Positions 28,407 through 48,994 of a DNA stretch of 64,000 nt are shown piece after piece. Source of the stretch: Nesterenkonia ebinurensis (GTDB lineage Bacteria; Actinomycetota; Actinomycetes; Actinomycetales; Micrococcaceae); NCBI RefSeq assembly GCF_008711175.1, contig NZ_VWNF01000041.1, positions 186,001 to 250,000 on the forward strand, written 5' to 3'. The notes beneath the pieces are model-generated. The model saw nothing but the letters and a program-made list of their open reading frames with translations, was not told the origin of the DNA and made no database searches. A program made the position numbers and the translations under genes. Every line of letters begins with the position of its first letter. Positions within the stretch are counted from its first letter, which is position 1.

Positions 28407-28431
28407 TTGCTGTTTGCGCCCCAGGAGCACC

Positions 28432-31002: not shown

Positions 31003-31022
31003 TACTGAACGAACGGTCAGTA
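31003..31022. promoter_or_regulatory. PaaR operator overlapping the paaA promoter
   Basis: Near-palindrome TACTGAACG-AA-CGGTCAGTA lies 16 bp before paaA and overlaps a TATACT -10-like hexamer, a typical repressor position. Matches the other PaaR sites in this window. Confidence 0.84.
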
Positions 31023-31037
31023 ATTCAGGAGGTCATG

Positions 31038-32078: not shown

Positions 32079-32130
32079 GCCCTGTTCTCCTCCGCTTCAC
32101 CTCACCCAAGACATGAAAGGCCTCTCCGGC

Positions 32131-32481
32131 ATGACTAAACCTGAGCAGAATGCAGAGCAGATCCCGGACGGCGGCGTGATCGCCACTGATCCGGCCGACC
32201 GCAGCCTGTGGCCGCTCTGGGAAGTCTTTGTCCGCTCCTCGCGGGGGCTCTCCCATGTGCATGCCGGTTCCCTGCACGCCCCGGACGCCTCCATGGCGCT
32301 GCGCAACGCCCGGGATCTCTACACCCGGCGCAATGAGGGAACCTCCATCTGGGTGGTGCCCACTGCAGAGATCGCAGCCTCCGACCCCGACTCCAAGGGT
32401 GGCTACTTCGAGTCCGCCCAGGGCAAGGCCTATCGGCACGCCACCTACTACACCCAGTCCGAGGGGGTGCCACACCTGTGA
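32131..32481 (+). CDS. paaB: 1,2-phenylacetyl-CoA epoxidase subunit B
   Basis: 116 residues. WPLWEVFVRSSRGLSHVHAGSLHAPD and ALRNARDLYTRRNEGTSIWVVP are family hallmarks. Structural subunit bridging PaaA-PaaC complexes. Start ATG at 32131 is chosen from family length; the longer frame upstream is Pro/Ser-rich and not conserved. Stop overlaps the GTG of paaC. Confidence 0.95.
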   Translation: MTKPEQNAEQIPDGGVIATDPADRSLWPLWEVFVRSSRGLSHVHAGSLHAPDASMALRNARDLYTRRNEGTSIWVVPTAEIAASDPDSKGGYFESAQGKAYRHATYYTQSEGVPHL

Positions 32482-33323
32482 ATGAGACCGCAGGATTCAC
32501 TGCCCAGGACTCCGCCACCAGGATCTCGGTGGGCGATGCCATCACCCCTGAGGATCTGCGATCCTCCGGGGCGGCCACCGATGAGGAGACAGCCCGCTAC
32601 GCCCTAATCCTGGGAGATGACTCACTGATGCTCGCCCAACGGTTGGGGCACTGGATCTCCCGGGCACCAGAGCTGGAGGAGGATATCGCCCTGGGCAATA
32701 TCGCCCTGGACCTGCTGGGCCATGCCCGGTTCTTCCTCACCTATGCCGGCACTGCCTGGGGCAAGACCGAAGATGACTTGGCTTATTTCCGTGACGAGGA
32801 TGAGTTCCGCTCCGCCCGACTGGTGGAGCAGGACAACGGCGACTTCGCCAAGACCATCGCCCGGCAGCTGATCTTCAGCTTCTACTCCCATGAGCTGTAC
32901 TCCCGACTGGTGGACTCCGCCGATGAGACCCTGGCCGCCGTGGCAGATAAGGCGCTCAAGGAGGTGGCCTACCACCAGGACCACTCCGCCCAGTGGCTGC
33001 TGCGCTTAGCCGGCGGCACCGAGGAGTCCCACCAACGCATGCAGGCAGGGCTGGAGGCGGTCTGGGCCTATGTGGACGAGCTGTTCTACGACGCCGAGCC
33101 CACACCCAAACTGGCTGAAGCCGGCATTGCTGTGCTGCCTTCAACCCTGCGGGAACCGGTGATGTCCCGGCTGACTCAGAGCATTGAGCAGGCTGGGCTG
33201 AGCATCCCTGAGGTCAAAGGCGCCTTCGGAGCTGACCGGTCCGGACGGTTCTCTGAGCAGCGCGGCTTCATCCTGGCTGAGATGCAGGTGCTGGCCCGCC
33301 AGCACCCCGGAGCCACCTGGTGA
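32478..33323 (+). CDS. paaC: 1,2-phenylacetyl-CoA epoxidase subunit C
   Basis: 281 residues, catalytically inactive ferritin-like partner of PaaA. Conserved blocks: LGDDSLMLAQRLGHWISRAPELEEDIALGNIALDLLGHAR in overlapping stretches, and FSFYSHELYSRLVDSAD, KEVAYHQDHSAQWLLRLAGG. GTG start overlapping the paaB stop (GTGA). Confidence 0.95.
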   Translation: MNETAGFTAQDSATRISVGDAITPEDLRSSGAATDEETARYALILGDDSLMLAQRLGHWISRAPELEEDIALGNIALDLLGHARFFLTYAGTAWGKTEDDLAYFRDEDEFRSARLVEQDNGDFAKTIARQLIFSFYSHELYSRLVDSADETLAAVADKALKEVAYHQDHSAQWLLRLAGGTEESHQRMQAGLEAVWAYVDELFYDAEPTPKLAEAGIAVLPSTLREPVMSRLTQSIEQAGLSIPEVKGAFGADRSGRFSEQRGFILAEMQVLARQHPGATW

Positions 33324-33871
33324 CAGCCGCCATGACCACTGCTGAAGACATCCGCCTCTCCCCGGACGGTGTGCGTCCAACAGAACCGCGCGATGCCGCA
33401 GTCTGGGACCTGGCCGCCCAGGTGAACGATCCGGAGATCCCAGTGCTCTCCATTGCTGATTTGGGCATCCTGCGGGCCGCTGCGGCAACTGGGGACGGAG
33501 GCGGCGTCGTACTGATCACCCCCACCTACTCCGGCTGCCCGGCCATGGACACCATCACCGAAGATGTCCGGACCGCCCTGCAGCAGGGCGGCTATGATCC
33601 TGTGCGAGTTCAGACGGTGCTCAAACCCGCCTGGACCACCGACTGGATGACCGATGAGGGTAAGACCAAACTGCGCGAGTACGGCATCACCCCGCCCAGC
33701 GGCACCGCCCCGGTGCGCAACGGCCCGGTCTCGGTGGGGCTGAGCGTGAAATGCCCGCGGTGTAATTCCCTAGACACCCGTGAGCTGGCCCGGTTCGGCT
33801 CCACTGCCTGCAAGGCGCTGTACCAGTGCCGGGCCTGCCTGGAACCCTTCGACTACTTCAAGGTGCTGTAA
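33320..33871 (+). CDS. paaD: Phenylacetate epoxidase maturation protein D
   Basis: 183 residues: MIP18/DUF59 domain (VNDPEIPVLSIADLGIL, TPTYSGCPAMDTI) and a C-terminal zinc-ribbon-like segment CPRCNSLDTRELARFGSTACK with CRAC. PaaD helps iron-sulfur or cofactor assembly for the epoxidase. GTG at 33320 overlaps the paaC stop; an ATG four codons later is an alternative. Confidence 0.95.
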   Translation: MTAAMTTAEDIRLSPDGVRPTEPRDAAVWDLAAQVNDPEIPVLSIADLGILRAAAATGDGGGVVLITPTYSGCPAMDTITEDVRTALQQGGYDPVRVQTVLKPAWTTDWMTDEGKTKLREYGITPPSGTAPVRNGPVSVGLSVKCPRCNSLDTRELARFGSTACKALYQCRACLEPFDYFKVL

Positions 33872-35049
33872 TGACCGTTGAGACCCCTGCCGCGGAAGCG
33901 GCTCCTGCGGCGCGCCGCCGCGCCACCTTCAACACCCTGCGGGTCAAGGATGTTCGCCGGCTGACCGCCGACTCCGTGGAGGTCACCTTCGAGGTGCCCA
34001 CGGAGTTGCAGGAAGACTTCGACTACGCCCCGGGTCAGTATGTAGCCCTGCGCACCCAGATCGAGGGCAAGGAAGTGCGGCGCTCCTACTCGATCTGCAC
34101 CGAACCGGTTGCCGGAGAGATCCGGGTGGCGATCAAGCGTGACATCGGCGGAGTGTTCTCCACCTGGGCCAATGAGGAGCTGATCCCGGGGGCAAGCCTG
34201 GAGGTGATGAACCCTTCCGGTGCGTTCGTCTCCAAGACCGCGATCACCTCGATGAATCGTCCGGAGGAGCTGGCTGAAGAAGCGGTGGCCCGCCGCACTG
34301 ATGCCCGACTGGTGGCCTTTGCCGCAGGCTCCGGCATCACCCCGATTATGGCGATCGCCCGCTCAGTGCTGCGCTCCTCCCCTGAGGCTACTTTTGAGCT
34401 GGTCTACGCTAACCGTTCGGCCGGCGAGGTAATGTTCGCTGAGGAGATCGGGGACCTGAAGGACCGTTATCCGGCCCGGTTCGCAGTCCACCATGTCCTC
34501 TCCCGCGAGCAGCGGCTGAACCCACTGCTGACCGGCCGGATCGACGCCGAGAAGCTCACTGCCCTGCTGGACTATGTGCTGCGCACGCAGGAGACCGACG
34601 AATGGTTCCTCTGTGGGCCCTTTGAGCTGGTCCAGCTGGTACGTGATGAGCTGGCTTCCCGGGGGGTGCCGGAGGAGAGGGTGCGCTTTGAGCTGTTCAG
34701 CACCGGGCGGCCCGACCAGCCTGCTGGCCAGCAGGGCCGCCGGGTGCAGACCGATCCGGGCGGGAAGACCATGGAGATCGAATTCACCTTGGACGGGCTG
34801 ACCGGCCAGGTGGCCTCTCCGGCTGCCTCCGGGGAGACCGTGCTCAACGCCGCCCTGCGCTCCCGCTCCGATGTGCCGTTCGCCTGCGCAGGCGGAGTGT
34901 GTGGCACCTGCCGGGCCAAAGTGGTCTCCGGAGACTTTGAGATGGAGGAGAACTACGCCCTGGAGAAGGACGAGGTGGAGCGCGGCTATGTGCTCACCTG
35001 TCAGACCAGACCCACCGGCGAGAAGCTCGTGGTGGACTACGACGCCTGA
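33871..35049 (+). CDS. paaE: Phenylacetyl-CoA epoxidase reductase subunit E
   Basis: 392 residues: FNR-type FAD/NADPH module (YAPGQYVALRT, RRSYSICTEP, GSGITPIMAIARSVL) followed by a plant-type 2Fe-2S ferredoxin domain with FACAGGVCGTCRAKV and the last Cys in VLTCQTRP. Delivers electrons from NADPH to the PaaAC di-iron centre. TAATG overlap with paaD. Confidence 0.96.
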   Translation: MTVETPAAEAAPAARRRATFNTLRVKDVRRLTADSVEVTFEVPTELQEDFDYAPGQYVALRTQIEGKEVRRSYSICTEPVAGEIRVAIKRDIGGVFSTWANEELIPGASLEVMNPSGAFVSKTAITSMNRPEELAEEAVARRTDARLVAFAAGSGITPIMAIARSVLRSSPEATFELVYANRSAGEVMFAEEIGDLKDRYPARFAVHHVLSREQRLNPLLTGRIDAEKLTALLDYVLRTQETDEWFLCGPFELVQLVRDELASRGVPEERVRFELFSTGRPDQPAGQQGRRVQTDPGGKTMEIEFTLDGLTGQVASPAASGETVLNAALRSRSDVPFACAGGVCGTCRAKVVSGDFEMEENYALEKDEVERGYVLTCQTRPTGEKLVVDYDA

Positions 35050-35093
35050 GCACTCTGGCCCCTGACCCCGACCCACCAACACGGAGGCAGCTG

Positions 35094-35864
35094 ATGATTG
35101 ATCTGACTATTGATGAGGGCTTGGCCGAGGTGGTGCTCAGCGCGCCAGAGAAGCTGAACTCGCTGGATGAGGCGGCCCTGGCGCAGCTGGAGGGCGCCTA
35201 CCAGGAGGCCGAGGCAGCCGGGGTCCGGGCCCTGCTGCTGCGCGGTGAGGGCCGCGGGTTCTGTGCAGGCCGGGACATCTCCGGGGTTATCCCAGCCGAC
35301 GACGACGTGCTGGGTTACCTGGGAGGGAAGGTCACTCCCCTGCTGCACCGGATGGCGCAGTTCCCGGCACCGACCTTCGCTGCGGTGCAGGGCGCCTGTC
35401 TGGGAGTGGGACTGGGGTTGGCGATCGCCACCGATGTGGTCTATGTGGCCGAGGACGCCAAGATCGGCTCCCCCTTCGCCTCCCTGGGCGCGACCCTGGA
35501 CTCCGGGGGCCATGCCCTGTTCGTGGAGCGACTGGGCGTCCACCGCACCCTGGACCTGATCTACACTGCGGAGCTGATCTCCGGGTCAGAAGCGGTGGCG
35601 GCCGGGCTGTTCTCCCGGGCTGTGCCTGCTGATGAGCTGGTGGAGTTCACCCGGGAGAAGGCGCAGAGGGCTGCCTCCGGCGCCACTCTGGCTTTCCGGG
35701 AGTCGAAGAAGCTGGTCGCCCAGATCCGCGATGAGCGGATCGGGCTGTGGGAGTCTCTGGACGCGGAGAACCGCGCCCAGGCCGCACTCTGCGCCACCGA
35801 GGACTACGCCGAGGGTTTCGCCGCCTTCCAGACCAAGCGCAGGCCCACCTTTAAAGGTCATTAG
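35094..35864 (+). CDS. paaG: 1,2-epoxyphenylacetyl-CoA isomerase (crotonase family)
   Basis: 256 residues. The crotonase oxyanion motifs are present (GFCAGRDISGV, GACLGVGLGLA). Both hydratase glutamates are absent, and an Asp sits in ATLDSGGHALF, the arrangement of PaaG isomerases, which form the oxepin-CoA. Last gene of the epoxidase operon. A diverged second copy of its last 100 bp lies at 36667-36768. Confidence 0.9.
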   Translation: MIDLTIDEGLAEVVLSAPEKLNSLDEAALAQLEGAYQEAEAAGVRALLLRGEGRGFCAGRDISGVIPADDDVLGYLGGKVTPLLHRMAQFPAPTFAAVQGACLGVGLGLAIATDVVYVAEDAKIGSPFASLGATLDSGGHALFVERLGVHRTLDLIYTAELISGSEAVAAGLFSRAVPADELVEFTREKAQRAASGATLAFRESKKLVAQIRDERIGLWESLDAENRAQAALCATEDYAEGFAAFQTKRRPTFKGH

Positions 35865-35908: not shown

Positions 35909-36577
35909 TCAGTCCGTGCGTCGCCAAATGGCTTCCCATTGAATCCAGGTGCCCGGGCCGCTCCTGCGGGGTTGAGCGTCTTTCACGAGAGGAAGAACAG
36001 GATCCCAGCTTTCAAAAAGGTTCTCTAGCTCAGCAGCAGCGAAGAAATGTACGTCTAGGTATTGCTTAGGACCTTCCAAGTAACGGATGTCGAAACTGCT
36101 GTCCGCATTCTCGGAGGTTACCTCATAGGCGGGCCATACCTCTGTCCCGACCGCATTTGCCCTCAAGCAGAAGAGTCCTCCTGGCCGAACAAGCCTTTGA
36201 GCAGAACGAATATGGCGGTGACATCGCTGGCGAGTTCCAAACATGAATACTTGGATCCCGATCACCATGCTCGTGATCTCTGGCGGCAAGGTCTCAACAG
36301 TTCCTATGTTGAAGCGGTGCGCGCGCTCTGGGAATCGGCGGCGCATTTGCTCAATTGCCACAGAAGATATGTCCAGCCCGCACAGATCCATGTTGGCATC
36401 GATGAACGCCTGCGTATTGCGACCATTACCACATCCAACCTCAAGTGCGTCATTGATACCGAAGGTCTGAGCCGTAGCGACTATCTTTTCCGCAAAAGGG
36501 ATTGGCAGCTGGCTCATATAGCGTCCCGACCCGAACTGCGCATTCCAGGACCGTTCGTTGGCTTCCTTCCAATTCAT
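35909..36577 (-). CDS. Class I SAM-dependent methyltransferase
   Basis: 222 residues with SAM motif I ALEVGCGNGRNTQAFID, motif II DLCGLDISSVAIEQ and RLVRPGGLFCLRANA. Substrate unknown. G+C is about 52-58% in the lines counted, lower than the flanking paa genes, and the gene lies between paaG and a degenerate copy of the paaG 3' end, on the opposite strand. These signs indicate insertion by transfer. Confidence 0.85.
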   Translation of the reverse strand: MNWKEANERSWNAQFGSGRYMSQLPIPFAEKIVATAQTFGINDALEVGCGNGRNTQAFIDANMDLCGLDISSVAIEQMRRRFPERAHRFNIGTVETLPPEITSMVIGIQVFMFGTRQRCHRHIRSAQRLVRPGGLFCLRANAVGTEVWPAYEVTSENADSSFDIRYLEGPKQYLDVHFFAAAELENLFESWDPVLPLVKDAQPRRSGPGTWIQWEAIWRRTD

Positions 36578-36666: not shown

Positions 36667-36768
36667 AAAAAGAACCGCGCCCAGGCCGCGCTCTGCGCCA
36701 CTGAGGACTATTCAGAGGGCTTCGCCGCCTTCCAGGCCAAGCGCAAGCACACCTTCAAAGGTCATTAG
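36667..36768 (+). pseudogene. Duplicate 3'-end remnant of paaG
   Basis: About 100 bp here encode NRAQAALCATEDYSEGFAAF and QAKRKHTFKGH followed by a stop, aligning with the last 33 codons of paaG (NRAQAALCATEDYAEGFAAF, QTKRRPTFKGH). Similarity starts abruptly at 36667; no start or upstream domain exists. Most differences are in third positions, so it is a diverged paralogue's end rather than an exact recent copy. Confidence 0.9.
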
Positions 36769-37894: not shown

Positions 37895-38461
37895 CTAGTT
37901 GGAGGCGCGTGAGATGAGAACCTCGGCGCTGCAGGGGGTGCCGTCCTCATCATCGTCCTGGTCAGGTTCGCCGGGGCGCAGATGGATGGCGCGGATAGTT
38001 CCCTCGGGCAGCTCCAGCAGCTGCTCGGCGCGGATGAACAGCTCCTGCCAGACCTGAAGCTCCTCCTCACTCTCAGTCCCAGGCAGGGAGACGAAGGGGG
38101 CCCGCCCGTCATTGAGCAGACGCTGGGCATTGCGAAAGATATGCAGGCCGAAGTCGACTAAGCCGGCGGAGATGCCGGTGCCGTTGCAGATCACCTTGTC
38201 CTGGGCACGAGCCAGCCGCTGCGGGCTGATGAAGCTGCTGGGCGGCTCAGACAGGTGCTGATCCACCAGCAAAGCCCAGTCGCGGGTGCTACTTCTGCGG
38301 GTGCCATCGGAACCGAGCGCCTCCACCCGGGGACCGAATTCCTGGTGCAGGACGCCCAGGAACTCCAGGGTTGCGGCAGTGAAGAGCTCGTTCTGCCGCG
38401 GGACCTCAGGGCCAGCCAGGGTAGCAAACTGGCGTGATGTCTCAGGGGCGGTGATGGTCAT
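37895..38461 (-). CDS. Shortened malate-synthase-like protein
   Basis: 188 residues. The N-terminus (ELFTAATLEFLGVLHQEFGPR) resembles the start of malate synthase A. The C-terminal half (SAGLVDFGLHIFRNAQRLL, VWQELFIRAEQLLELPEGTIRAIHL) resembles the LFDFGLYFFHNAKELL and [27 protein letters not shown] regions. Normal enzymes have about 530 residues; the section carrying the ADFEDA segment and everything after strand TIRA, including the catalytic base region, are missing. Yet AAAGGAG sits 8 bp before the ATG and the frame is clean. It may be a stable domain-sized derivative or a deletion product; catalysis is unlikely. Confidence 0.6.
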   Translation of the reverse strand: MTITAPETSRQFATLAGPEVPRQNELFTAATLEFLGVLHQEFGPRVEALGSDGTRRSSTRDWALLVDQHLSEPPSSFISPQRLARAQDKVICNGTGISAGLVDFGLHIFRNAQRLLNDGRAPFVSLPGTESEEELQVWQELFIRAEQLLELPEGTIRAIHLRPGEPDQDDDEDGTPCSAEVLISRASN

Positions 38462-38603
38462 GGCGAATCTCCTTTGATTCTTGGGCCGTCTTCCTTGACA
38501 TTCACCAGTCTTGACCACTGGACAACCCGCTCACCAGCGATTCTTCCGCAAAGATTGACGCTTCTTCGCAGTGGCGAAGAAAAGCCAAAACTCCCGCACC
38601 CCT

Positions 38604-38870
38604 TCAGGGAGCCAAATGCCCCAGAGAGACCACATGGACTCCATCTGGTCGCGTGTAACTCAACTCGCCTCCGGTCAGCACGACTAGCGCTTGGAGCTGA
38701 GCTTCACGCTGTTCAGAGACCTTAGCCTTGAGCTGCCGCAAATTACCCGCTGCACGGTCGATGTGCTTCTGACCCCCAGCTTTCACCTCAAAAGCGGCCC
38801 AACGACCGTCGCGGAGTTCAACAATGGCGTCAACTTCCAGGTGTGAGCTATCCCGGTAATGGAAGACACC
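38604..38870 (-). pseudogene. C-terminal fragment of an AAA/DUF4143-type ATPase
   Basis: Minus-strand translation gives VFHYRDSSHLEVDAIVELRD, then GRWAAFEVKAGGQKHIDRAA, then the C-terminus ending VSLGHLAP and stop. This is the nuclease-like C-terminal domain (D...ExK) of predicted AAA+/DUF4143 ATPases. The roughly 330 residues expected before it are absent; upstream DNA (38871-38966) has stops in frame, so the gene is truncated. Confidence 0.72.
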
Positions 38871-38967
38871 CCCCGGTGGACATCCGCACTGTATGAATTT
38901 CCGTACCCATTTTGCACACGAGAGACTACCTAGTTTGCACGAATTCTGAGAAAAGGTCTGATTTGCC

Positions 38968-38999
38968 TACTCCGCCCAGCCGGAGGTCTCCTTCACCAT
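38968..38999 (-). pseudogene. Duplicate 3'-end remnant of paaZ
   Basis: TACTCCGCCCAG-C-CGG-A-GGTCTCCTT (26 nt) repeats the 3' end of paaZ at 42983-43008 with two mismatches and encodes VKETSGWAE-stop, against paa[10 protein letters not shown]-stop. It is on the same strand and lies immediately left of the TRAP cluster, whose right edge is paaZ itself. Confidence 0.75.
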
Positions 39000-39010
39000 C
39001 AGCAACTTAC

Positions 39011-39032
39011 TAACTAACCGTTCGGTCAGTAA
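39011..39032. promoter_or_regulatory. PaaR operator upstream of the TRAP-TAXI operon
   Basis: TAACTAACC-GTTC-GGTCAGTAA matches the PaaR palindrome (left half one or two mismatches), about 80 bp before the TRAP permease. It places the transporter and the prephenate-dehydratase-like gene in the PaaR regulon. Surroundings 38462-39110 otherwise hold only the ATPase and paaZ remnants. Confidence 0.76.
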
Positions 39033-39053
39033 TGTGCTATCGTGAACGCTAAA

Positions 39054-39069
39054 CGTGATGTAGCTCACT
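39054..39069. promoter_or_regulatory. Weak CRP/GlxR-like site, TRAP promoter
   Basis: CGTGA-TGTAGC-TCACT, two mismatches from TGTGA-N6-TCACA, 21 bp downstream of the PaaR operator. Listed because the other three PaaR-marked promoters have similar sites. Confidence 0.35.
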
Positions 39070-39110
39070 GGCATCTGTGAGCTGAACCTCAAGCACCCTG
39101 GTGGCGATAC

Positions 39111-41084
39111 ATGGCAACAGCGACAACTGCTCAGGAAACTCCGAAGGAATTCGGAGACGTCACGCCCGGAACTTCCGCGCAGGAAACTCTGGGCAACGAT
39201 GCTAAGCGGAGCTTCGGCCCGCGTGCGGGCCTCATCGTTGCTGCAATAGCCATCATCTGGGCTGCCTTCCAACTCTTCGCGACAGTTTCAGGAACTGTGG
39301 GGGCCATGAACCTCCGCGGGTGGCACATCGTCTTCCTCGTCCTCCTGACATTCCTGATATTCCGGCCTTTCAAAGCACGGTGGACGCGCAGTAACTACGT
39401 CACCGCCTTGGATGTCCTACTAGCCCTCGTAGCGACATCTCCCTTTCTCTACTTTCTTTGGAACTACGAGAGCATCGCCTTGCGTGGAGGGTTCCTGGAA
39501 CCTCTGGATTACGCGATGGGCATCCTTGGTGTGATCGTGGCGCTTGAAGCTGCTAGAAGAGTTGTGCGCAACCTCGCCATCCTGGCCGCGATCTTCTTGT
39601 TGTATGCCGTCTTCGGAGGCTACATCAGTGGCATCTTTGGTCACGCGGGCTACTCCATGGAACGTCTCACACAACAACTATTTTGGGGTAGCCAAGGCAT
39701 CTTTGGAATCGCGATCGGGGTCTCAGCCACCTTTGTATTTATCTTCATCGTCTTTGGCGTCTTCCTGAAGTACAGCGGCTTCAGCGACTTCATCAGCGAT
39801 ATCTCACTCGCCATCACCGGCCACTCCCCTGGCGGCCCAGCCAAGGTAGCTGTCATTGCCAGTGCTTTAACTGGGACAATCAACGGCAGCGCCCTGGCAA
39901 ACGTCGCAACCACTGGTTCCATCACAATCCCCTTGATGAAGCGGAACGGTTACACACCTCGAATGGCGGCTGCGGTTGAAGCTGTGGCTTCAACTGGCGG
40001 ACAGTTTGCCCCACCGGTAATGGGCGCGGTCGGCTTCGTCATGGCTGAGTACTTGGGGCTGCCCTATGTGGCCGTCATGCTGGCTGCGGTGCTGCCCGCC
40101 GTTTTGTACTACTTCGCCATTCTGCTGGTGGTTCACTTTGAAGCCAAGAAACAGGGCCTCTCAGGAATCTCACGAGAGAACCTCCCGCGCGCCTTCGAGG
40201 TGATGAAACGCAAAGGCCATCTGTCACTGCCACTTATTGTGCTTGTGACCCTCCTGCTCATGGGCTACACCCCGCTGTTCGCAGGAGTCGTGGGAATCGG
40301 GTGTGCAATTGCTGCCTCATGGATCCGACCCTCTGACGGCATGCGCCCCAAAGACATCCTGAAGTCTCTTGAGGAGGGGGCGCGGAGTGCGATCGGCGTC
40401 GGCGTGGCCTGCCTAGTCATCGGCATCATCATTGGTGTTGTTTCGCTCACGGGCTTGGGACTGAATCTGGGGTTTTTCATCGCCAACTTCACAGGCGGTT
40501 ACCTCTTCGTCGCAGCGCTCTTGGTGATGATCATGAGCATCATCTTGGGGATGGGAGTCCCAGGGGTGGCTGCTTACGTGATCGTTGCCGCCGTAGGCGC
40601 TCCGATCCTGACCAACGCTGGGGTTGAGCCGCTGGCAGCCCACATGTTCATCCTGTTCTTCGCCTCCCTGTCCAATATCACTCCACCAGTTGCCCTTGCC
40701 TCTTACATTGCCGCGGGAATCGCACAGGAAGACGAGACCAAGGTCTCTCTCACAGCAGTCAAAGTGGGACTCATCGGCTTCATCATGCCATTCATTTTCA
40801 TCTACAATCCACGGCTTCTGATGGACCCAAACGATCTCGGGGCCAGCCTGCTGCCAGCGCTCACCGCGTTGTCGGCCGTAGTGCTGATGACCGCGGCCTT
40901 GCAGGGATGGCTATGGGGAGCACTTCACCCGATCCTAAGGTTTGTGCTCTTCACAGCCGGCCTCTTGGTGTTCATCCCCGGCCTGATGACCACGCTGGTG
41001 GGTGGCGGAATGGCGGCAGCAGCACTTGTTCTCCACGTAACCACGAATGTGAAACGAAGCGAAGACGCTTCTCAAGGAAGGTAA
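39111..41084 (+). CDS. TRAP transporter fused permease (4TM/12TM, TAXI type)
   Basis: 657 residues with many hydrophobic segments, fusing the small and large TRAP permease subunits as in TAXI systems (DctQ-like first 200 residues, then DctM-like). Landmark stretches: SGFSDFISDISLAITGHSPGG, GTINGSALANVATTGSITIPLM, VASTGGQFAPPVMGAVGFVMAEYLG read in parts, and PPVALASYIAAGIA. Ion-driven uptake of organic acids. Lower G+C (about 55% in lines counted) than paa neighbours suggests acquisition. Under a PaaR operator; substrate likely an aromatic or prephenate-like acid (inference). Confidence 0.93.
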   Translation: MATATTAQETPKEFGDVTPGTSAQETLGNDAKRSFGPRAGLIVAAIAIIWAAFQLFATVSGTVGAMNLRGWHIVFLVLLTFLIFRPFKARWTRSNYVTALDVLLALVATSPFLYFLWNYESIALRGGFLEPLDYAMGILGVIVALEAARRVVRNLAILAAIFLLYAVFGGYISGIFGHAGYSMERLTQQLFWGSQGIFGIAIGVSATFVFIFIVFGVFLKYSGFSDFISDISLAITGHSPGGPAKVAVIASALTGTINGSALANVATTGSITIPLMKRNGYTPRMAAAVEAVASTGGQFAPPVMGAVGFVMAEYLGLPYVAVMLAAVLPAVLYYFAILLVVHFEAKKQGLSGISRENLPRAFEVMKRKGHLSLPLIVLVTLLLMGYTPLFAGVVGIGCAIAASWIRPSDGMRPKDILKSLEEGARSAIGVGVACLVIGIIIGVVSLTGLGLNLGFFIANFTGGYLFVAALLVMIMSIILGMGVPGVAAYVIVAAVGAPILTNAGVEPLAAHMFILFFASLSNITPPVALASYIAAGIAQEDETKVSLTAVKVGLIGFIMPFIFIYNPRLLMDPNDLGASLLPALTALSAVVLMTAALQGWLWGALHPILRFVLFTAGLLVFIPGLMTTLVGGGMAAAALVLHVTTNVKRSEDASQGR

Positions 41085-41094
41085 AGAAATCACC

Positions 41095-42063
41095 ATGAGG
41101 AAACACCTCGCACCCCTCGCAATTCTCAGCATCTCCGCACTCACCCTCAGCGCCTGTAATGGTGAGGACAATGGCCCGGATGCCAGTGACCTACGGTTCC
41201 CCACAGCCAGCACCACTGGTGTGATTTATCCTCTTGGTGCTTCCATGTCTAATGTCTGGAACTCCGATCTAGAGGGTGTCACTGTTCACTCGGAAGCCTC
41301 CAATGGCGGCGTGGAAAATCTCAACCTGATGGCCAGCGGTGACGCAGACATCACCTTCGCCACAGCCGGAATCGCATATGAGGCGCTGCACGGTGAGGGG
41401 ACTTTCGAGGGTCGCCAGCATGAGGGACTTCGAGTATTGGCCGGTCTCTACGAGAATCCGAACCAGGTAGTGGTTCGTGCGGACCAGGGTATTGAGTCCA
41501 TTTCAGATCTTGAAGGACGCAACTTCGCACCTGGTGCCACGGGCAGCACACCCGAAGTGGAGGCCAGAGCCATTCTTCCGGTCTACGGAGTTGAGTACCC
41601 AGATGGAATCAACGCAAACTTCGTTGGCTTCGATGAAGCAATCGACCTGATGCGCAACCGGCAAGTTGATGGTGCGCTGATTCAAGCCGGCCTACCCACG
41701 GCAGCGGTGACGGAAATGACCTCCACTGTTGGGGCAGAGCTCATCCCGATTGAGGGCGAAGAACGCGACCAGCTGTTGGCTGAGTACCCCTGGTACAACG
41801 AGTTCACGATCCCCGCTGATACCTACGACAACCAGCCGGAGGATGTTGAGACCATCTCAATCAAGATGCTGCTTCTGGTTGACGAAAGCATGGACGACGA
41901 TCTGGCCTACGACCTTGCCCAGGCCTTCTGGGAGAATCTGGACCAGTTAGATCAGCAGAGCGTCGTGGAGCAAATCGATATTAGCGGCGCAGCACAGGAT
42001 CTCGGTGAAGTGCCCCTTCATGACGGTGCTGCCCAGTTCTACGAAGAGAATGGCAACCTGTGA
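41095..42063 (+). CDS. TAXI-family TRAP solute-binding lipoprotein
   Basis: 322 residues. Signal peptide with lipobox TLSAC, then FPTASTTGVIYPLGASMSNVW, the TAXI signature region, EASNGGVENLNLMASGDADI and GATGSTPEVEARAIL. Binds the ligand for the TRAP permease 10 bp upstream. Its stop overlaps the GTG of the following prephenate-dehydratase-like gene. Confidence 0.93.
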   Translation: MRKHLAPLAILSISALTLSACNGEDNGPDASDLRFPTASTTGVIYPLGASMSNVWNSDLEGVTVHSEASNGGVENLNLMASGDADITFATAGIAYEALHGEGTFEGRQHEGLRVLAGLYENPNQVVVRADQGIESISDLEGRNFAPGATGSTPEVEARAILPVYGVEYPDGINANFVGFDEAIDLMRNRQVDGALIQAGLPTAAVTEMTSTVGAELIPIEGEERDQLLAEYPWYNEFTIPADTYDNQPEDVETISIKMLLLVDESMDDDLAYDLAQAFWENLDQLDQQSVVEQIDISGAAQDLGEVPLHDGAAQFYEENGNL

Positions 42064-42971
42064 GTCACGCCTTGGGCGCGATGGCCCTTTCCAGCGAAGA
42101 ACCATCCGCGGAATCACCTCGAATCAGCTTCCTCGGACCGTCAGGGACATTCTCCGAGAGCGTAGTTGATTACATCTTTGAGGACCTTGCCATTCACCGA
42201 TCGCCGCAAGGCACCATTGGTGAATGCGTCGATTCGCTCAGGGGAGGCAATGCGGAGTACGCCGTTGTACCAGTCGAGAACTCCACAGGTGGCGTCGTCC
42301 CTGATTTCTGGGACCTCCTCGCAGCGCAGTGGCAGGATCGAACCTGGAATCTGGAACTCGATGTGGTCAGTGACGTTTCTCAGCATCTGTTTGCTTCAGC
42401 GGCACTCGTTGAACGCCATGAGGAGCCAACGAAGATCTTCTCGCATTGGCAGGCGCTGCGGCAGTGTCGAAAGTACCTAGATCGAATCTATCCGAAGGCT
42501 GAGCGAGTTCCGGTGGACAGCACAGCTGAGGCCGGACGGATAGCTCAGGAGTTCGCTGATGAGCCATTTGCAGCTATAGGACACCGCAATATTGGTGATC
42601 GCTTTGGGCTAGTGAGAATCGCATCATCCGTGGAGGACAATCCCTTCAACCAGACCCGCTTTGTAGTCCTTTCTAGCCGTGAGGCACCCAAGGCGGGAAC
42701 GTGGATTGACGCAGCAGAGCACCGTGCATTGACGTATCACTCTGTTGAGAGTTCGGGACTCACCTCCGTGCCCTCGACATTGGCCGAGATTGAGGCCAGC
42801 CGCGGTTGGGAACTCACTGGCTGTTACTCACTGCCAAAACCGGGGTACATGGGTGAGTACAACGTCTTTATGGACTGGCGCACCACTTCCACTGATACAG
42901 GCACTCACCAAAGCAGACCTAACAAGCAGGGCACATACGTGGTCGTCGACGCTTACCACAGAGTGCCATGA
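42060..42971 (+). CDS. Prephenate dehydratase-like protein with degenerate regulatory domain
   Basis: 303 residues. Catalytic domain: ISFLGPSGTFSESVVDYIF, YAVVPVENSTGGVV, TAEAGRIAQEFADEPFAAIGH and NQTRFVVLSSR with the catalytic Thr-Arg-Phe. Prephenate dehydratase converts prephenate to phenylpyruvate. The C-terminal ACT region lacks the usual GAL and ESRP phenylalanine-binding motifs (it has RAL and YSLPKPG), so feedback control is probably lost. GTG start overlaps the TAXI stop (GTGA). A catabolic rather than biosynthetic role is inferred from the PaaR operator and transporter context. Confidence 0.87.
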   Translation: MSHALGAMALSSEEPSAESPRISFLGPSGTFSESVVDYIFEDLAIHRSPQGTIGECVDSLRGGNAEYAVVPVENSTGGVVPDFWDLLAAQWQDRTWNLELDVVSDVSQHLFASAALVERHEEPTKIFSHWQALRQCRKYLDRIYPKAERVPVDSTAEAGRIAQEFADEPFAAIGHRNIGDRFGLVRIASSVEDNPFNQTRFVVLSSREAPKAGTWIDAAEHRALTYHSVESSGLTSVPSTLAEIEASRGWELTGCYSLPKPGYMGEYNVFMDWRTTSTDTGTHQSRPNKQGTYVVVDAYHRVP

Positions 42972-42981
42972 ACCCCTGGAT

Positions 42982-45117
42982 TTACTCCGCCCAGTCGGGG
43001 GTCTCCTTGGCAACCCGGGTGAGCACATCGTAGGTGGCCACGATCTCGTCATTCTGGTTGTGCAGCACGGTGTCCCAGCGCACCTCGCCGTAGTCGTCGG
43101 TCTCCCGCGGGGTGATCTGCTTGGCGGTCAACGTGACTCGGATCGAGTCGCCGTAGGTGACCGGGGTGAGGAAGCTGAGGTTCTCCAGCCCGGTATTGGC
43201 CAGCACCGGGCCCGGGGCCGGCTCCACGAACAGCCCGGCGGCCCAGGAGACCAGCAGGTAGCCGTGGGCCACTCGCCGCGGGAAGAACGGGTTGGCGGTG
43301 GCCGCCTCTTCATTGGTGTGGGCATAGAACGTATCCCCGGTGGACTCGGCAAAGGCCTCAATGTCCTCCAGACGTACCTCGCGCAGCCCGGAGACGAACT
43401 GATCACCGATCCGCAGCTCAGACAGCGGCTTGCGGAAGGGGTGGACCGCCTCACCGGAGGCCACCTTTTCAGGGGTGGCGGTATTGGCCTTCGCACCACG
43501 GTGCCAAACCCCGGTCACCCCGGTGAGCAGGTCAGGGGTGCCCTGAACTGCGGTGCGCTGCATATAGTGCTTGACCCCACGCATCCCGCCGAGCTCCTCG
43601 CCGCCGCCGGCCCGGCCTGGGCCGCCGTGCACCAGAGCGGGAAGCGGAGAGCCGTGCCCGGTGGAGGTCTTGGCATCGTCGCGATCCAGCAGGTGCACCC
43701 GGCCGTGGTGAGAGCCGATCCCGCGGACAAACTCCCCGGCAATCTCCGGGTCATGGGTAGCCACTGTGGCCACCAGGGAGCCGCCACCCAGGGCAGCCAG
43801 GGCCACGGCGTCGTCGATATCTGTGTAGCCCAGAACGGAGGTCACCGGCCCGAAAGCCTCCACCTGATGCACCTCAGGAGTGCGAGGCAGACTGAACTTC
43901 AGCGTGGTGACCGGGAAGAAGGCACCGAGCTCGGCATCAGCACCCCCAGTGCCTGCCTCAGGCCCGCCGAAGCAGACCTCCCCACCAGCCTCGATGAGCC
44001 GCTGGACTGCGGAGGCCACCTCTTCCTGCTGGTCCTTGGAGGCCAACGCACCCACGGTGGTGGCCGGATCGCGCGGGTCGCCCAGCACCGCACGGGACTC
44101 CACCCGGGCGCGCAGGGCCTCCACCACCGCATCCACATGCTCACTGGGCACAATGGTGCGGCGGATCGCGGTGCACTTCTGGCCGGCCTTGACAGTCATC
44201 TCCTGCACCACGGCCTTGACGAAGGCCGCGAACTCCTCAGTTCCGGGTGCGGCGTCGGGGCCCAGGATCGCCGCATTGAGTGAGTCGGTCTCAGCGGTGA
44301 ACCGCACGCCTTCCTGCTGCACATTCTGATGCGAGCGCAGCAGTTGAGCGGTGCCCGCCGAACCGGTGAAGGCCACATGGTCGCGGTAGTCCAAGTGGTC
44401 CAGCAGGTCCCGGGCAGAGCCGGAGATCAGCTGCAGGGAACCGGCCGGCAGCAATCCGGAATCCAGCATCAGCCGCACACAGGCCTCAGTGACGTAGGCG
44501 GTCTGACTGGCAGGCTTCACAATGGTGGGCACCCCGGCGATGAAGCTGGGCGCGAACTTCTCCAACATGCCCCAGACCGGGAAGTTGAAGGCATTGATCT
44601 GGACCGCCACCCCGGTCAGCCGGGTGTAGACGTGCTCGCCGATGAAGCTGCCGTCCCGGGAGAGCTGTTCGACTTGCCCATCGATGATGACGTTGGAGTT
44701 GGGCAGTTCCTTGCGTCCCTTGGATGAGTAGGCGAACAGGGTGCCGATCCCGCCGTCGACATCGATGAGATGATCCTTGCGAGTGGCTCCGGTCTTGTCC
44801 GAGAGCTCGTAGAGCGGCTCTTTGTTCTCACCCAGGTGAAGGGCCAGCTTCTTCAGGATCAGGGCCCGCTGGTGGAAGGTCAGTTCACCCAGCCCGGCCT
44901 GACCCACCGTACGGGCGTAGTCCACCGCAGCAGCGGCATCCAGGCCGTCAGTGGAGATCCGGCAGACCAACTCCCCGGTGGCGGCGTCGTTGATTTCAGA
45001 GACCCTCTGTGGATTTTCCGGAGTCCACCAGGAATCCGCAATGAAGCTGGGCAGGATGGCCTCGGGGCTGTGCGGGCTGGTCTTCGAAGTGCTTGCGGCG
45101 GGGGTTTCGACGGTCAT
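42982..45117 (-). CDS. paaZ: Bifunctional oxepin-CoA hydrolase / 3-oxo-5,6-dehydrosuberyl-CoA semialdehyde dehydrogenase
   Basis: 711 residues. N-terminal aldehyde dehydrogenase domain (about 1-530) with nucleophile Cys in [16 protein letters not shown] and C-terminal MaoC hotdog hydratase (about 545-690) with [18 protein letters not shown] and [19 protein letters not shown]. It opens the oxepin ring and oxidises the aldehyde. Divergent from the E1alpha-E2-paaJFH operon with a PaaR operator in between; converges with the TRAP unit 10 bp away. Confidence 0.97.
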
Positions 45118-45170: not shown

Positions 45171-45192
45171 TTACCGACCAATCGGTCAGTAT
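45171..45192. promoter_or_regulatory. PaaR operator in the divergent paaZ / E1alpha promoter
   Basis: TTACCGACC-AATC-GGTCAGTAT, an almost perfect inverted repeat matching the other three sites. It lies 54 bp before paaZ and 76 bp before E1alpha, so it can control both directions. Confidence 0.84.
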
Positions 45193-45267: not shown

Positions 45268-46497
45268 ATGGACGATCCCATCACCAGCCCGGAGCAGGGT
45301 CACCAGAAGGCCGAGCAGGCTTCCCGGATCCTCGAGACCAGCAGAACCTTCGGCATCTCCCCGGAACAGTACATGCTGCCGGCCCAGCAGCAGATCCGCA
45401 TGCTGGACCCGGACGGCAGCCTGGTTCCCGAGGACCAGCAGGGCACCGGCCCCGGGCACGAATACCCGATCCCGGAGGATGATGTGCTGCTAAAGGCTTA
45501 CACCACCCTTGTGGCCGGCCGCCGCATCAATGATCAGAACTACGCCCTAGTCCGGCAGGGCCGGATGGCTGTCTACCCCTCCTCGCACGGCCAGGAAGCC
45601 TGCCAGGTGGGCGCCGCGCTGTGCCTGGGTGAGGGCGACTGGATGTTCCCCACCTACCGAGACTCAGTGGCAGTGATCTCTCGCGGAGTGGACCCGCTGG
45701 ACGTGATGGTCTCCTTCCGCGGGGACTGGCACTGCGGCTACGATCCCAAGGTCTACCGGGTGGGAGCGATGTCCACCCCGCTGACCACCCAGCTGCTGCA
45801 CGCGGTCGGTGTGGCCCATGCCGCCAAGCTGCGCGGTGAGGACACTGTGGTGCTTGCCATGTGCGGCGACGGGGCCACTTCCGAGGGCGATTTCCACGAG
45901 GCGCTGAACTTCGCCGCAGTCTTCGAGGTGCCGGTGGTGTTCTTTGTGCAGAACAACGGCTATGCCATCTCGGTGCCGCTGTCCAATCAGTCCGCCGCAC
46001 CCTCCCTGGCGCATAAGGCCATCGGCTATGGGCTCGCCGGGGAGCAGGTGGACGGCAATGACATGGTGGCCGTGCTGGCCACCCTGCGCCGGGCAGTGCA
46101 CCTTGCCCGGGAGAACTCCATGCCGCTGCTGCTGGAAGCCGTCACCTACCGGATGCAGGCCCACACCAACGCCGATGATGAGACCCGCTACCGCGACCGG
46201 GAGGAAGTGGAGCAGTGGAAGCGCAAGGATCCGCTGCTGCGCATGCAGAAGTTCCTCACCGCCAAGGGGCTGCTGGACGAGGCCGCCGAGACCCAGATCG
46301 CCGCAGCCGCCGAGGAGGTGGCCGCCTCACTGCGCCAGGCGATGTCTGCCGAGCCGGAGGAGGATCCACTCGAGATCTTCGATCACGTCTACACCGAACC
46401 CACTGCCCAGCTTTCTGCTCAGCGTGCACAGTTGGCCGATGAGCTGGACAGAGCCCATGGAGAAGCTTGGGCCGGCACCGAGGAGGGCACCCGCTGA
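45268..46497 (+). CDS. 2-oxoacid dehydrogenase E1 alpha subunit
   Basis: 409 residues, ThDP-binding: GDGATSEGDFHEALNFAAVF (GDG...N motif ending QNNGYAIS) and YPSSHGQEACQVGAALCL. Sequence type fits branched-chain 2-oxoacid dehydrogenase (BkdA) or pyruvate dehydrogenase-like E1alpha. It starts after GAGAGGGGG at a PaaR-marked divergent promoter, heading an operon that also carries paaJ, paaF and paaH. BCAA keto acids or phenylpyruvate/arylpyruvate are the candidate substrates. Confidence 0.9.
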   Translation: MDDPITSPEQGHQKAEQASRILETSRTFGISPEQYMLPAQQQIRMLDPDGSLVPEDQQGTGPGHEYPIPEDDVLLKAYTTLVAGRRINDQNYALVRQGRMAVYPSSHGQEACQVGAALCLGEGDWMFPTYRDSVAVISRGVDPLDVMVSFRGDWHCGYDPKVYRVGAMSTPLTTQLLHAVGVAHAAKLRGEDTVVLAMCGDGATSEGDFHEALNFAAVFEVPVVFFVQNNGYAISVPLSNQSAAPSLAHKAIGYGLAGEQVDGNDMVAVLATLRRAVHLARENSMPLLLEAVTYRMQAHTNADDETRYRDREEVEQWKRKDPLLRMQKFLTAKGLLDEAAETQIAAAAEEVAASLRQAMSAEPEEDPLEIFDHVYTEPTAQLSAQRAQLADELDRAHGEAWAGTEEGTR

Positions 46498-47543
46498 TGA
46501 GCACCGCGACAGCAACGGAAACCACCACCTTCGCCTCCGCCCTGAACACCGCGATGTCTGACGCCATGGAGGCAGATGACTCCGTGGTGGTCTTCGGCGA
46601 GGACGTCGGCACCCTGGGCGGGGTCTTCCGGATCACCGACGGGCTGACCAAACGCTTCGGGGAGAACCGCTGCTTCGACACCCCGCTGGCCGAGTCCGGA
46701 ATCGCCGGAACTGCGGTGGGCATGGCCATCAACGGGATGCGCCCGGTGATCGAGATGCAGTTCGACGCCTTCGCCTACCCGGCCCTGGAACAGGTCTTCA
46801 GCCATATCGCCAAGATGGCCAACCGCACCCGGGGACGGGTCCGCCTGCCGATCGTCATCCGCATTCCCTACGGCGGTGGAGTGGGCGGGGTGGAGCACCA
46901 CTGCGACTCCTCCGAGGCCTACTACGCCCACACCGCCGGACTGAAGGTCTTCACCCCAGCCACCGTGGCCGATGCTTACCTGATGCTGCGCGAGGCCATT
47001 GACACCGAGGATCCGGTGGTGTTCTTCGAGCCTAAGAAGCTCTACTGGTCCAAGGCCGGCGAGGACCTCTCCGCGCTGCGCCAGCAGTACGAATCCTCTG
47101 CGGACACCGCCGAAGCCGACAGTCCGCGGGTGGGACCCACCGGCAATGCCAAGGTGGTCCGTGAGGGCACCGATGTCTCGATCATCAGCTACGGACCCTC
47201 GGTCTCCACTGTGCTGAAGGCTGCTGAGGCCGCCGCTGAGGACGGGATCTCCGCCGAGGTGCTGGACCTGCGTTCCGTGGTGCCCTTCGATGAGGAGGCC
47301 CTGGTGACCACGGTGGAGAAGACCGGCCGCGCCGTGGTGGTGGCCGAGGCTCAGGGCTTCGTCTCAGTGGCCAGTGAGATCACCGCCCGGATCCAGGAGC
47401 GCTGCTTCCATTCCCTTGCCTCCCCGGTGCTTCGGGTCACCGGCTTCGACATCCCCTATCCGGCACCGAAGCTGGAGGAGCACCACCTACCGGATGTGGA
47501 GCGGATCCTCGATACCCTCGACGAACTCCAGTGGGAGGACTGA
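46497..47543 (+). CDS. 2-oxoacid dehydrogenase E1 beta subunit
   Basis: 348 residues, transketolase-like: VVVFGEDVGTLGGVFRITDGL, DTPLAESGIAGTAVGMAINGMRPV in parts, FDAFAYPALEQVFSHIAKM, GGGVGGVEHHCDSSEAYYAHT and the C-terminal VTGFDIPYPAPKLE. Forms the alpha2-beta2 E1 with the preceding gene (TGATG overlap). Confidence 0.93.
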   Translation: MSTATATETTTFASALNTAMSDAMEADDSVVVFGEDVGTLGGVFRITDGLTKRFGENRCFDTPLAESGIAGTAVGMAINGMRPVIEMQFDAFAYPALEQVFSHIAKMANRTRGRVRLPIVIRIPYGGGVGGVEHHCDSSEAYYAHTAGLKVFTPATVADAYLMLREAIDTEDPVVFFEPKKLYWSKAGEDLSALRQQYESSADTAEADSPRVGPTGNAKVVREGTDVSIISYGPSVSTVLKAAEAAAEDGISAEVLDLRSVVPFDEEALVTTVEKTGRAVVVAEAQGFVSVASEITARIQERCFHSLASPVLRVTGFDIPYPAPKLEEHHLPDVERILDTLDELQWED

Positions 47544-47545
47544 GC

Positions 47546-48994
47546 ATGACCACTTTCAATCTGCCCGATCTGGGCGAGGGCCTCACCGAGGCCGTGCTGC
47601 TGAACTGGCTGGTGGCCGAGGGCGACCCCGTGGAGGTGGATCAGCCCATCGCTGAGGTGGAGACCGCCAAGTCTGCCATCGAGGTGCCCTGCCCCTACGC
47701 CGGGCTGGTGCAGACCCTGCACGGTGAGGTCGGAGAGACTCTCGAGGTGGACAAACCGCTGATCACGGTCACCACAGGGGACGACGACGCACCCTCAGCT
47801 GCCGCTGACGAAGACGCAGGTGCCTTGTCCTACCGTGAGGAAGAGCGCGCAGGCACCGCCGCGCCTGAGGAAGCTGGATCGGAAGGCTCCGGGAACGTGC
47901 TGATCGGTTACGGCACCTCAGCATCCAGCAACGGACGACGCCGCCGCCGCAAACGGCAGGTGCCCACGCAGGCCGCACCGGGCGAGACTGCCCCGGGCGA
48001 GCCCCAGCTGGTGGAGGCCACCCCTACTCAGACTCCAGCCGTGGAGGCCACACCCTCCGGTTCGGCCAAGGCTCCCCGGGTCTCCTCTCCCCTGGTGCGC
48101 AAACTGGCCCGGGAGCAGGGCGTGGCCCTGGATTCGCTGCCCGGCAGTGGGCCGGACGGGCTGATCATGCGCCAGGATGTGCTCACTGCCGCTGGCGCTT
48201 CCACCGACGGGGTGGCCGGCTCTCCAAGCGAGCCTGTCGCAGCCCAGGCCGCAGGGACGTCGTCATCGGTTGATCCCGACCCGACCACAGGGTTGGCGGT
48301 GCGTGATCAGACCCCGGTGACCGGGATCCGCAAGGCGATCGCCACCAAGCTTTCGCAGTCACGGGCCGAGATCCCGGAGGCCACCGTCTGGCAGGACATC
48401 GATGTCACCGCGCTGCTGGATCTCCGCACCCAGCTGAAGGCCTCGGATCAGGGGGCGCCCTCGGTGCTGGCGTTCCTCTCCCGGTTCGTGATCGCCGGGC
48501 TGCAGCGCCACCCTGAGCTGAACTCCCGGATCGACTCCGATGGGACTGGTGAGACCATCACCCAGTTCCAAGGGGTGAACCTGGGCTTCGCCGCACAGAC
48601 CCCTAAGGGACTGCTGGTTCCGGTGCTGCGTCACGCGGAGCAGCACTCCGCCCGGGCGCTGCATACCGAGATTCGTCGGCTGGCTGAGGCTGGCCGGGAA
48701 GGCACACTTTCCGGCAAGGAGCTCTCCGGCGGCACGTTCACGGTGAACAACTATGGGGTCTTCGGCTCCGACGGAGCCACCCCCATCATCAACCATCCGG
48801 AGGCCGCGATCCTGGGCATCGGCCGCATTATGGACCGGCCTTGGGCGGTGGACGGTCAGCTTGCTGTGCGCAAGGTGACCACTCTGACCCTGGCCTTTGA
48901 CCACCGGGTATGCGACGGTGGTTCCGCCGGCGGGTTCCTCAACTATGTGGCCACCTGCATGGAGAACCCCGGAACGGCCCTGGCTGACCTCTGA
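47546..48994 (+). CDS. Dihydrolipoamide acyltransferase E2 of 2-oxoacid dehydrogenase complex
   Basis: 482 residues: one N-terminal lipoyl domain with lipoyl-Lys in VETAKSAIEVP, an RRRRKR-containing linker (GYGTSASSNG), a peripheral-subunit-binding domain (SSPLVRKLAREQGVALDSLPG, read in parts) and a catalytic core ending FDHRVCDGGSAGGF. The HRxCDG end and linker fit branched-chain-type E2. GGGAGG precedes the ATG. No E3 gene is nearby, so E3 must come from elsewhere. Confidence 0.94.
   Translation: MTTFNLPDLGEGLTEAVLLNWLVAEGDPVEVDQPIAEVETAKSAIEVPCPYAGLVQTLHGEVGETLEVDKPLITVTTGDDDAPSAAADEDAGALSYREEERAGTAAPEEAGSEGSGNVLIGYGTSASSNGRRRRRKRQVPTQAAPGETAPGEPQLVEATPTQTPAVEATPSGSAKAPRVSSPLVRKLAREQGVALDSLPGSGPDGLIMRQDVLTAAGASTDGVAGSPSEPVAAQAAGTSSSVDPDPTTGLAVRDQTPVTGIRKAIATKLSQSRAEIPEATVWQDIDVTALLDLRTQLKASDQGAPSVLAFLSRFVIAGLQRHPELNSRIDSDGTGETITQFQGVNLGFAAQTPKGLLVPVLRHAEQHSARALHTEIRRLAEAGREGTLSGKELSGGTFTVNNYGVFGSDGATPIINHPEAAILGIGRIMDRPWAVDGQLAVRKVTTLTLAFDHRVCDGGSAGGFLNYVATCMENPGTALADL

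Follow-up and report, generated by a model that had tools for sequence, protein, structure and literature searches.

Why would a relative of a biosynthetic enzyme, prephenate dehydratase (PDT), share an operon with an importer in the middle of a phenylacetate degradation (paa) cluster? This question is raised by a 64,000-nucleotide stretch of the Nesterenkonia ebinurensis genome (contig NZ_VWNF01000041.1, positions 186,001 to 250,000; hereafter the window), from an assembly of 3.74 Mb in 50 contigs that is 98.65% complete. Three plus-strand genes at 39111-42971 of the window, located between paaG and paaZ, encode a fused TRAP transporter permease, a TAXI-family solute-binding protein, and a PDT homologue. 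A sequence-only reading had proposed that these genes form a feeder branch into phenylacetate degradation. Our analysis points the same way, at slightly less than even odds (roughly 0.45): the unit may be a horizontally acquired, PaaR-controlled feeder of the phenylacetate pathway, in which an imported acid would be converted to phenylpyruvate or a relative by an enzyme free of feedback. This reading draws support from an operator motif derived independently of the window, a second pheA for biosynthesis, selection on all three genes, and the recurrent use of one paa slot.

The components are as the sequence-only reading described them. The permease (39111-41084, 657 residues) scores 633 bits against TIGR02123 (TRAP_fused; cut-off 320.65) and 289 bits against PF06808. 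The TAXI protein (41095-42063, 322 residues), a probable lipoprotein with the lipobox LSAC recognized by eye, scores 272 bits against TIGR02122 (TRAP_TAXI; cut-off 84.35), and both halves of the claimed TRAP-TAXI system are thus above curated NCBIfam cut-offs. The claimed translational overlap is found as well: the GTG start of the gene for the PDT-like enzyme (42060-42971; 303 residues with a degenerate ACT domain; 141 bits against PF00800, cut-off 25.2) overlaps the TAXI stop codon by 4 bases, as also happens in N. sedimenti. The unit does lie inside the paa cluster, with paaG on one side, separated from it by 3.2 kb of other genes, and paaZ on the other. The N. sedimenti orthologues of the permease, TAXI protein, and PDT are 82%, 85%, and 66% identical, with ratios of nonsynonymous to synonymous substitution (dN/dS) of 0.067, 0.059, and 0.107, respectively; values of 0.06-0.11 across all three genes denote purifying selection.

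Operator motifs and the proposed route

A PaaR operator ahead of the unit, as had been claimed, is supported at the motif level. The site, CTAACCGTTCGGTCAG at 39014-39029, lies 81 bases 5´ of the TRAP start codon and scores 20.4 bits, the third-highest value in the window. The scoring matrix (consensus CTGACCGATCGGTCAG) was derived, with the window excluded, from the sequences preceding paaZ, paaA, and paaK in 20 further Nesterenkonia genomes; of 37 such sequences scanned, it uses the 32 that have three mismatches or fewer, and all five discarded ones precede paaK. Two of the 32 entries (L074 paaA and L079 paaK) are repeats of paaZ sites. The other high-scoring sites are located before paaA (31005-31020, 24.1 bits), between paaZ and a gene for the E1 alpha subunit of a 2-oxoacid dehydrogenase (45174-45189, 23.4 bits), and at the start of a paaI-type thioesterase open reading frame (ORF) before paaK (28388-28403, 19.2 bits), with the fifth-ranked score at only 12.7 bits. 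A site with at most two mismatches to CTNACCGNNCGGTNAG precedes paaZ in all 20 of the other genomes. The window holds ten such matches against 3.38 expected (0 of 100 shuffles reach ten), and its sole exact match is the site at 39014. Across the genome, sequences with at most one mismatch to CNGACCGWWCGGTCNG occur in seven places, five of them in one 38-kb region (C33:214-252 kb), a count that has no control at this stringency; at two mismatches the number is at chance level (68, compared with 75 in the control). According to the available part of PMC9493321, PaaR proteins of the TetR type recognize inverted repeats broadly like this one, and phenylacetyl-CoA releases them; PaaR would be expected to bind at 39014.

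A candidate for the step from phenylpyruvate to phenylacetyl-CoA is found beyond paaZ, where plus-strand genes encode E1 alpha (45268-46497), E1 beta (46467-47543), and the E2 lipoyl acyltransferase (47531-48994) of a 2-oxoacid dehydrogenase. E1 alpha passes TIGR03181 (418.6 bits; cut-off 411.35), a model named for pyruvate dehydrogenase E1 alpha, while E1 beta and E2 are below the cut-offs of NF006667 (271 against 321 bits) and NF008814 (281 against 722 bits), respectively. Among 30 Nesterenkonia genomes, an orthologue of this E1 alpha (at least 78% identity) is present in 23 of 23 with paaZ and in none of the seven without, a split with a chance probability of 4.9e-7 that is uncorrected for relatedness and includes two incomplete genomes (62 and 82%) among the seven. 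Another E1 alpha (39-46% identity) is found in all 30 genomes, and E1 beta adjoins E1 alpha in each of the 20 stretches compared. The natural reading is that the E1/E2 genes beside paaZ encode a dedicated phenylpyruvate dehydrogenase that could yield phenylacetyl-CoA. For the conversion that the sequence-only reading had assumed, a candidate enzyme that co-occurs with paaZ can now be named, and its activity on phenylpyruvate is a prediction. Whatever the role of the unit, the co-occurrence of E1 with paaZ points to a direct conversion of phenylpyruvate into phenylacetyl-CoA that can be put to the test. We also observed that the E1 alpha, E1 beta, and E2 genes of one relative (G420; L077, C51) are 94-97% identical to those of the window, compared with 79-87% for its paaC, paaD, paaE, paaG, and paaZ, which looks like an exchange of this operon between species.

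In the route we propose, the TAXI protein would capture an acid outside the cell and the fused TRAP permease, as expected for its family, would import it. The PDT-like enzyme, judging from its retained catalytic residues, would convert the acid to phenylpyruvate or a close arylpyruvate with loss of water and carbon dioxide, and the E1/E2 complex linked to paaZ would then yield phenylacetyl-CoA, which would enter paaABCDE. PaaR, acting at the operator called from the motif, would repress the unit until phenylacetyl-CoA is present. Loss of the phenylalanine-binding motifs would release the enzyme from feedback, as suits a PDT that serves catabolism and not biosynthesis. The likeliest substrates are prephenate, arogenate, and cyclohexadienyl acids related to them, a guess that can be tested. 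The full scheme, in which bacteria eat prephenate or arogenate that plants or microbes release, by means of TAXI-TRAP import, a feedback-free PDT, phenylpyruvate dehydrogenase, and the paa pathway, all under PaaR, is one we advance only tentatively, with the odds leaning against it.

The regulon may extend past the window. A second exact match to CTNACCGNNCGGTNAG is located 2.4 kb beyond the window end (C33:252363-252378; L106:4364-4379), between a gene for an MFS metabolite symporter and genes for an acyl-CoA thioesterase and a GlcD-like 2-hydroxyacid oxidase, the symporter and oxidase assignments both being below model cut-offs. A GlcD-like oxidase that converts phenyllactate to phenylpyruvate would fit here. 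Six relatives were compared: four carry the whole symporter-thioesterase-oxidase cassette (G015, G005, G420, and G010), of which G015 has an operator with at most three mismatches and the stretches of the other three have none, and two carry the symporter alone (G024 and G003), with a three-mismatch site 79 bases upstream in G024.

The dehydratase-like enzyme and the TAXI pocket

The sequence-only reading had asked whether this is the only pheA in the genome. It is not; there is one other PDT gene, a canonical pheA at C12:171108-171644 (161 bits). We rejected a recent duplication of this host pheA as the origin of the unit's PDT, given 28% identity and a long separate branch; the tree tool warned of long branches meeting, and the deeper placement of the branch is accordingly unsure.

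Both PDT orthologues retain E73, N74, S128, H129, Q131, Q135, and T199-R200-F201 as in Salmonella PheA. The unit's PDT thus keeps the equivalents of Salmonella PheA E159, N160, S208, Q215, and T278 as well as the TRF triad; these five residues we take to be important in the E. coli prephenate dehydratase, the first four as catalytic residues. The ACT-domain motifs are lost, GALV being replaced by STLA (AALA in the N. sedimenti orthologue) and ESRP by YSLP, while the canonical pheA of the same genome has GGLM and ESRP at these places. Roles for the TRF triad and for the GALV and ESRP motifs, the latter two in phenylalanine binding by the ACT domain, are taken from the available part of PMC10845154. 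W130, F83, and W84 are shared by none of 26 compared PDTs (12 from Nesterenkonia, one shortened, L026, and one with stops in its reading, L013), and at positions 83 and 84 the others have T in 24 of 26 and L in 24 of 26, respectively. Because the catalytic positions are retained, the ACT motifs are gone, and the pocket-side residues are unusual, this looks from its sequence like an enzyme with its chemistry kept, its feedback lost, and its pocket altered. AlphaFold models from two-sequence alignments, with mean confidence scores (pLDDT) of 36.5 and 32.5, were useless.

The altered residues near the catalytic site leave a changed substrate as a serious rival. It is possible, if on balance unlikely, that the unit is a feeder with a changed enzyme, the importer bringing in a phenylacetyl conjugate or another aromatic precursor and the PDT-like protein acting, for example, as an acylase that frees phenylacetate. 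There is precedent in GqqA, a PDT homologue with reported acylase activity towards N-acyl-homoserine lactones and beta-lactams that still complements pheA (available part of PMC8192741). The three unusual residues would fit such a change, as would the long branch that sets the unit's PDT and its orthologue apart from the 26 PDTs, with the warning given above, and the presence in the same slot elsewhere of other possible feeder genes, such as those for a GMC oxidoreductase and an aldehyde dehydrogenase (see below). Retention of the catalytic positions and the TRF triad in both orthologues argues for the original chemistry.

Binding of an unrelated ligand such as glutamate by the TAXI protein, the other point that the sequence-only reading had flagged as damaging, is made unlikely by comparison with VcGluP. 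Six glutamate-contact residues of VcGluP have been tested by mutation (Y45, S75, Q93, E125, Y200, and M201; available part of PMC11574862), and none of the six is kept in either TAXI orthologue, the replacements being I, V or G (depending on the alignment), T, N, I, and Q. Nine other TAXI proteins, eight from other Nesterenkonia and one from a genome of the same order, keep Y45 and S75 and keep neither Q93 nor E125. Among 396 genomes of the order, the unit's own TAXI protein aside, a single match reaches E of at most 1e-60; it shows 40% identity and has genes for a GntG aldolase and a dicarboxylate symporter as neighbours. A TAXI transporter for o-phthalate in Azoarcus is mentioned in the available part of PMC11574862, and TAXI ligands are therefore not limited to glutamate.

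The altered TAXI pocket could also suit a monocarboxylate, and a second rival holds that there is no new branch: the importer would serve phenylacetate, phenylpyruvate, phenyllactate, or another ordinary acid, and the PDT would work on the cell's own prephenate or serve as a ligand-binding partner. The PaaR-like operator fits this case too, and the unit may itself be the phenylacetate importer (importers of the PaaL type were not searched for). We consider this explanation improbable: the PDT gene shows translational coupling and purifying selection, and it would presumably be wasteful to drain the prephenate made by the cell itself under catabolic control.

The paaG-paaZ slot and the weight of the evidence

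Judged by the TAXI orthologue, the unit is present in N. ebinurensis and N. sedimenti MY13, and in both it occupies the paaG-paaZ slot. The pairing of TAXI and pheA beside paa genes, for which conservation in other genomes had been suggested as a check, therefore recurs in this one further species and in no other that we found. Twenty paaZ neighbourhoods examined in other Nesterenkonia all lack the unit; paaG and paaZ are both visible in 16 of them, and the slot is as short as about 180 bases (G421) and as long as about 9 kb (G019). Family searches covered 20 of 52 slot ORFs. Three genomes (G007, G420, and G016) have a GMC oxidoreductase gene, an AraC gene, and an aldehyde dehydrogenase gene in the slot. 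The best models for the G007 aldehyde dehydrogenase are aminobutyraldehyde and phenylacetaldehyde dehydrogenase, both below cut-off, and the G420 and G016 enzymes were identified from a 34% match alone. Other slots hold genes for malic enzyme, a sulfatase, a carboxylesterase, a methyltransferase, or DUF proteins (including DUF4143), or nothing recognizable. Given these mixed contents, the slot houses possible feeder genes as well as unrelated ones. In N. sedimenti itself, the unit and paaZ are separated by genes for an amidase and a GMC oxidoreductase (L023:8913-12811), which lie on the strand opposite to the unit.

Synonymous divergence (dS) between N. ebinurensis and N. sedimenti is 1.6-2.6 in the unit and 0.55-0.80 in paaA, paaC, paaE, paaG, and paaZ; dS values above 1 approach saturation and may be raised further by unequal codon bias. 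The GC content at third codon positions (GC3) of the unit is 0.59-0.67 in N. ebinurensis, compared with 0.79-0.85 in the measured paa and E1/E2 genes, and it is 0.79-0.82 in N. sedimenti. Because dS of the unit exceeds that of the paa genes and GC3 is low in N. ebinurensis alone, these data suggest that the unit was acquired separately into the same slot in the two species, and they disfavour a common vertical inheritance in N. ebinurensis and N. sedimenti. At the DNA level the two units are homologous from about 39021, within the operator, to 42884, non-coding leader included. With the same slot filled in a second species by a diverged copy, the paa link recurs despite mobility.

Remains of insertion are visible near the unit. 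A remnant at 38607-38873 corresponds to residues 193-281 of a 281-residue DUF4143 protein that is intact in the relative G015 (L072:8683-9528), and after it, at 38968-38993, 26 bases repeat the 3´ end of paaZ (92%); together these are likely a scar left when the TRAP unit was inserted. A 207-residue ORF at 37895-38518, which resembles part of malate synthase A, is conserved in N. sedimenti (L031:13148-13777) and G015 (L072:7904-8488), and it lies on opposite sides of the unit in N. ebinurensis and N. sedimenti.

That the unit is only a passenger in an insertion hotspot, unrelated to phenylacetate, would agree with the mixed cargo of the 16 slots with both ends visible (malic enzyme, sulfatase, and DUF4143 genes among it) and with the foreign composition of the unit in N. 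ebinurensis, and is the least probable explanation, given the PaaR-like operator in this species and the occurrence of these three genes in the same slot of N. sedimenti, in a copy that has diverged and was probably gained separately.

A number of observations weigh against the feeder we favour. Free prephenate or arogenate is not known to be common outside cells, and none of the open-access titles listed deals with the uptake of either as food. The unit's PDT misses the NCBIfam equivalog cut-off for prephenate dehydratase (NF008865, 145 against 219 bits), and W130, F83, and W84 set it apart from other PDTs. The E1 alpha gene is present in 21 genomes that lack the unit and is therefore not tied to it, and the 2-hydroxyacid-oxidase cassette keeps its operator in two of five genomes, N. 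ebinurensis included. The N. sedimenti unit lacks a full operator, its score being 1.3 bits with the right half-site alone retained, and no sigma-70-like promoter was found upstream of the unit in N. ebinurensis or N. sedimenti. In N. sedimenti, where paaA carries a strong site (24.1 bits; L032), transcription may read through from the paa operon into the unit; the unit starts 153 bases after paaG, and this interval showed no terminator-like site.

The rarity of the unit (two of 30 Nesterenkonia genomes, the next TAXI match being 40% identical) also counts against this feeder. In the sample of 396 genomes of the order, one other match to the PDT was found at E of at most 1e-25 (G407, 34% identity) and no orthologue, and 17 kb around the G407 gene contained no relative of the TRAP, TAXI, or paa proteins of the window. 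A class sample of 394 genomes, which overlaps the order sample, gave no other match at E of at most 1e-24. These absences are weak evidence because the two samples, spread evenly, did not include N. sedimenti itself. A PDT match was also found in 73 plasmid records, of which six were viewed with 7-kb flanks (H3, H8, H12, H18, H19, and H25). Five of the six have no TAXI gene named in the annotation, as far as that incomplete annotation goes, and the unannotated sixth (H3) gave no match in a comparison with the TRAP and TAXI proteins of the window.

The surrounding cluster and known systems

The paa cluster begins with a paaI-type thioesterase ORF (28396-28908; PF03061) 5´ of paaK, which encodes phenylacetate-CoA ligase (28908-30293, plus strand; TIGR02155, 646.8 bits, barely over the cut-off of 646.3). 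A TetR-family regulator that we presume to be PaaR (30333-30962, plus strand; PF00440 and PF17932) is located between paaK and paaA. The plus-strand genes at 31035-35864 include paaA, paaC, and paaE (TIGR02156, TIGR02158, and TIGR02160), presumably paaB and paaD by position, and a paaG-like gene (35094-35864), whose best match is TIGR02280 (PaaG) at 139 bits, below the cut-off of 345. The paaZ gene (42982-45117, minus strand; TIGR02278, 1038 bits) is convergent with the unit, and beyond it the three dehydrogenase genes are accompanied by genes for a thiolase, an enoyl-CoA hydratase, and a 3-hydroxyacyl-CoA dehydrogenase. NCBIfam cut-offs are passed by paaK, paaA, paaC, paaE, and paaZ; several flanking and downstream genes are named from matches below model cut-offs. 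The final 98 bases of the paaG-like gene (35767-35864) recur at 36671-36768 with 90% identity, and the repeats flank a low-GC methyltransferase gene (35909-36577), as if this gene had arrived with a copy of the gene end.

The unit is a real, selected, and PaaR-linked module of known protein families whose combination we did not find in print. The sequence-only reading knew of no such pathway, and our search of the open-access full-text literature (subscription journals being outside its scope) likewise found no description of such a route. If the proposed feeder is correct, a biosynthetic enzyme has been recruited to catabolism and the poorly known TAXI transporters gain a new class of ligand; it would also suggest that a non-aromatic acid of the shikimate pathway is available as food outside cells.

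Comparison with known systems illustrates what is shared and what is distinct. The unit's PDT belongs by sequence to the family of PheA (PF00800) and shares its catalytic positions and TRF triad; unlike PheA, it is encoded in one operon with an importer, behind a catabolic operator, lacks the ACT motifs, and is below the equivalog cut-off. The transporter resembles TAXI-TRAP systems such as VcGluP/VcGluQM, TtGluBP, and the Azoarcus o-phthalate TAXI in having a fused permease and a TAXI protein, here both above curated cut-offs, and it differs from the VcGluP type in keeping none of the six glutamate residues, the nearest non-orthologous TAXI protein found being 40% identical. The reaction proposed for the E1/E2 complex beside paaZ matches the one suggested for PglB/C, a pyruvate-dehydrogenase-like pair of phenylglycine synthesis thought to convert phenylpyruvate to phenylacetyl-CoA (available part of PMC7089894); PglB/C is biosynthetic, and the likeness drawn here is one of proposed function. 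Finally, the cluster shares its core genes, a TetR gene, and the inverted-repeat type of operator with the paa catabolon under TetR-type PaaR, while the TAXI importer, the PDT, and the 2-oxoacid dehydrogenase found here are additions to the paa genes listed in the available part of PMC9493321.

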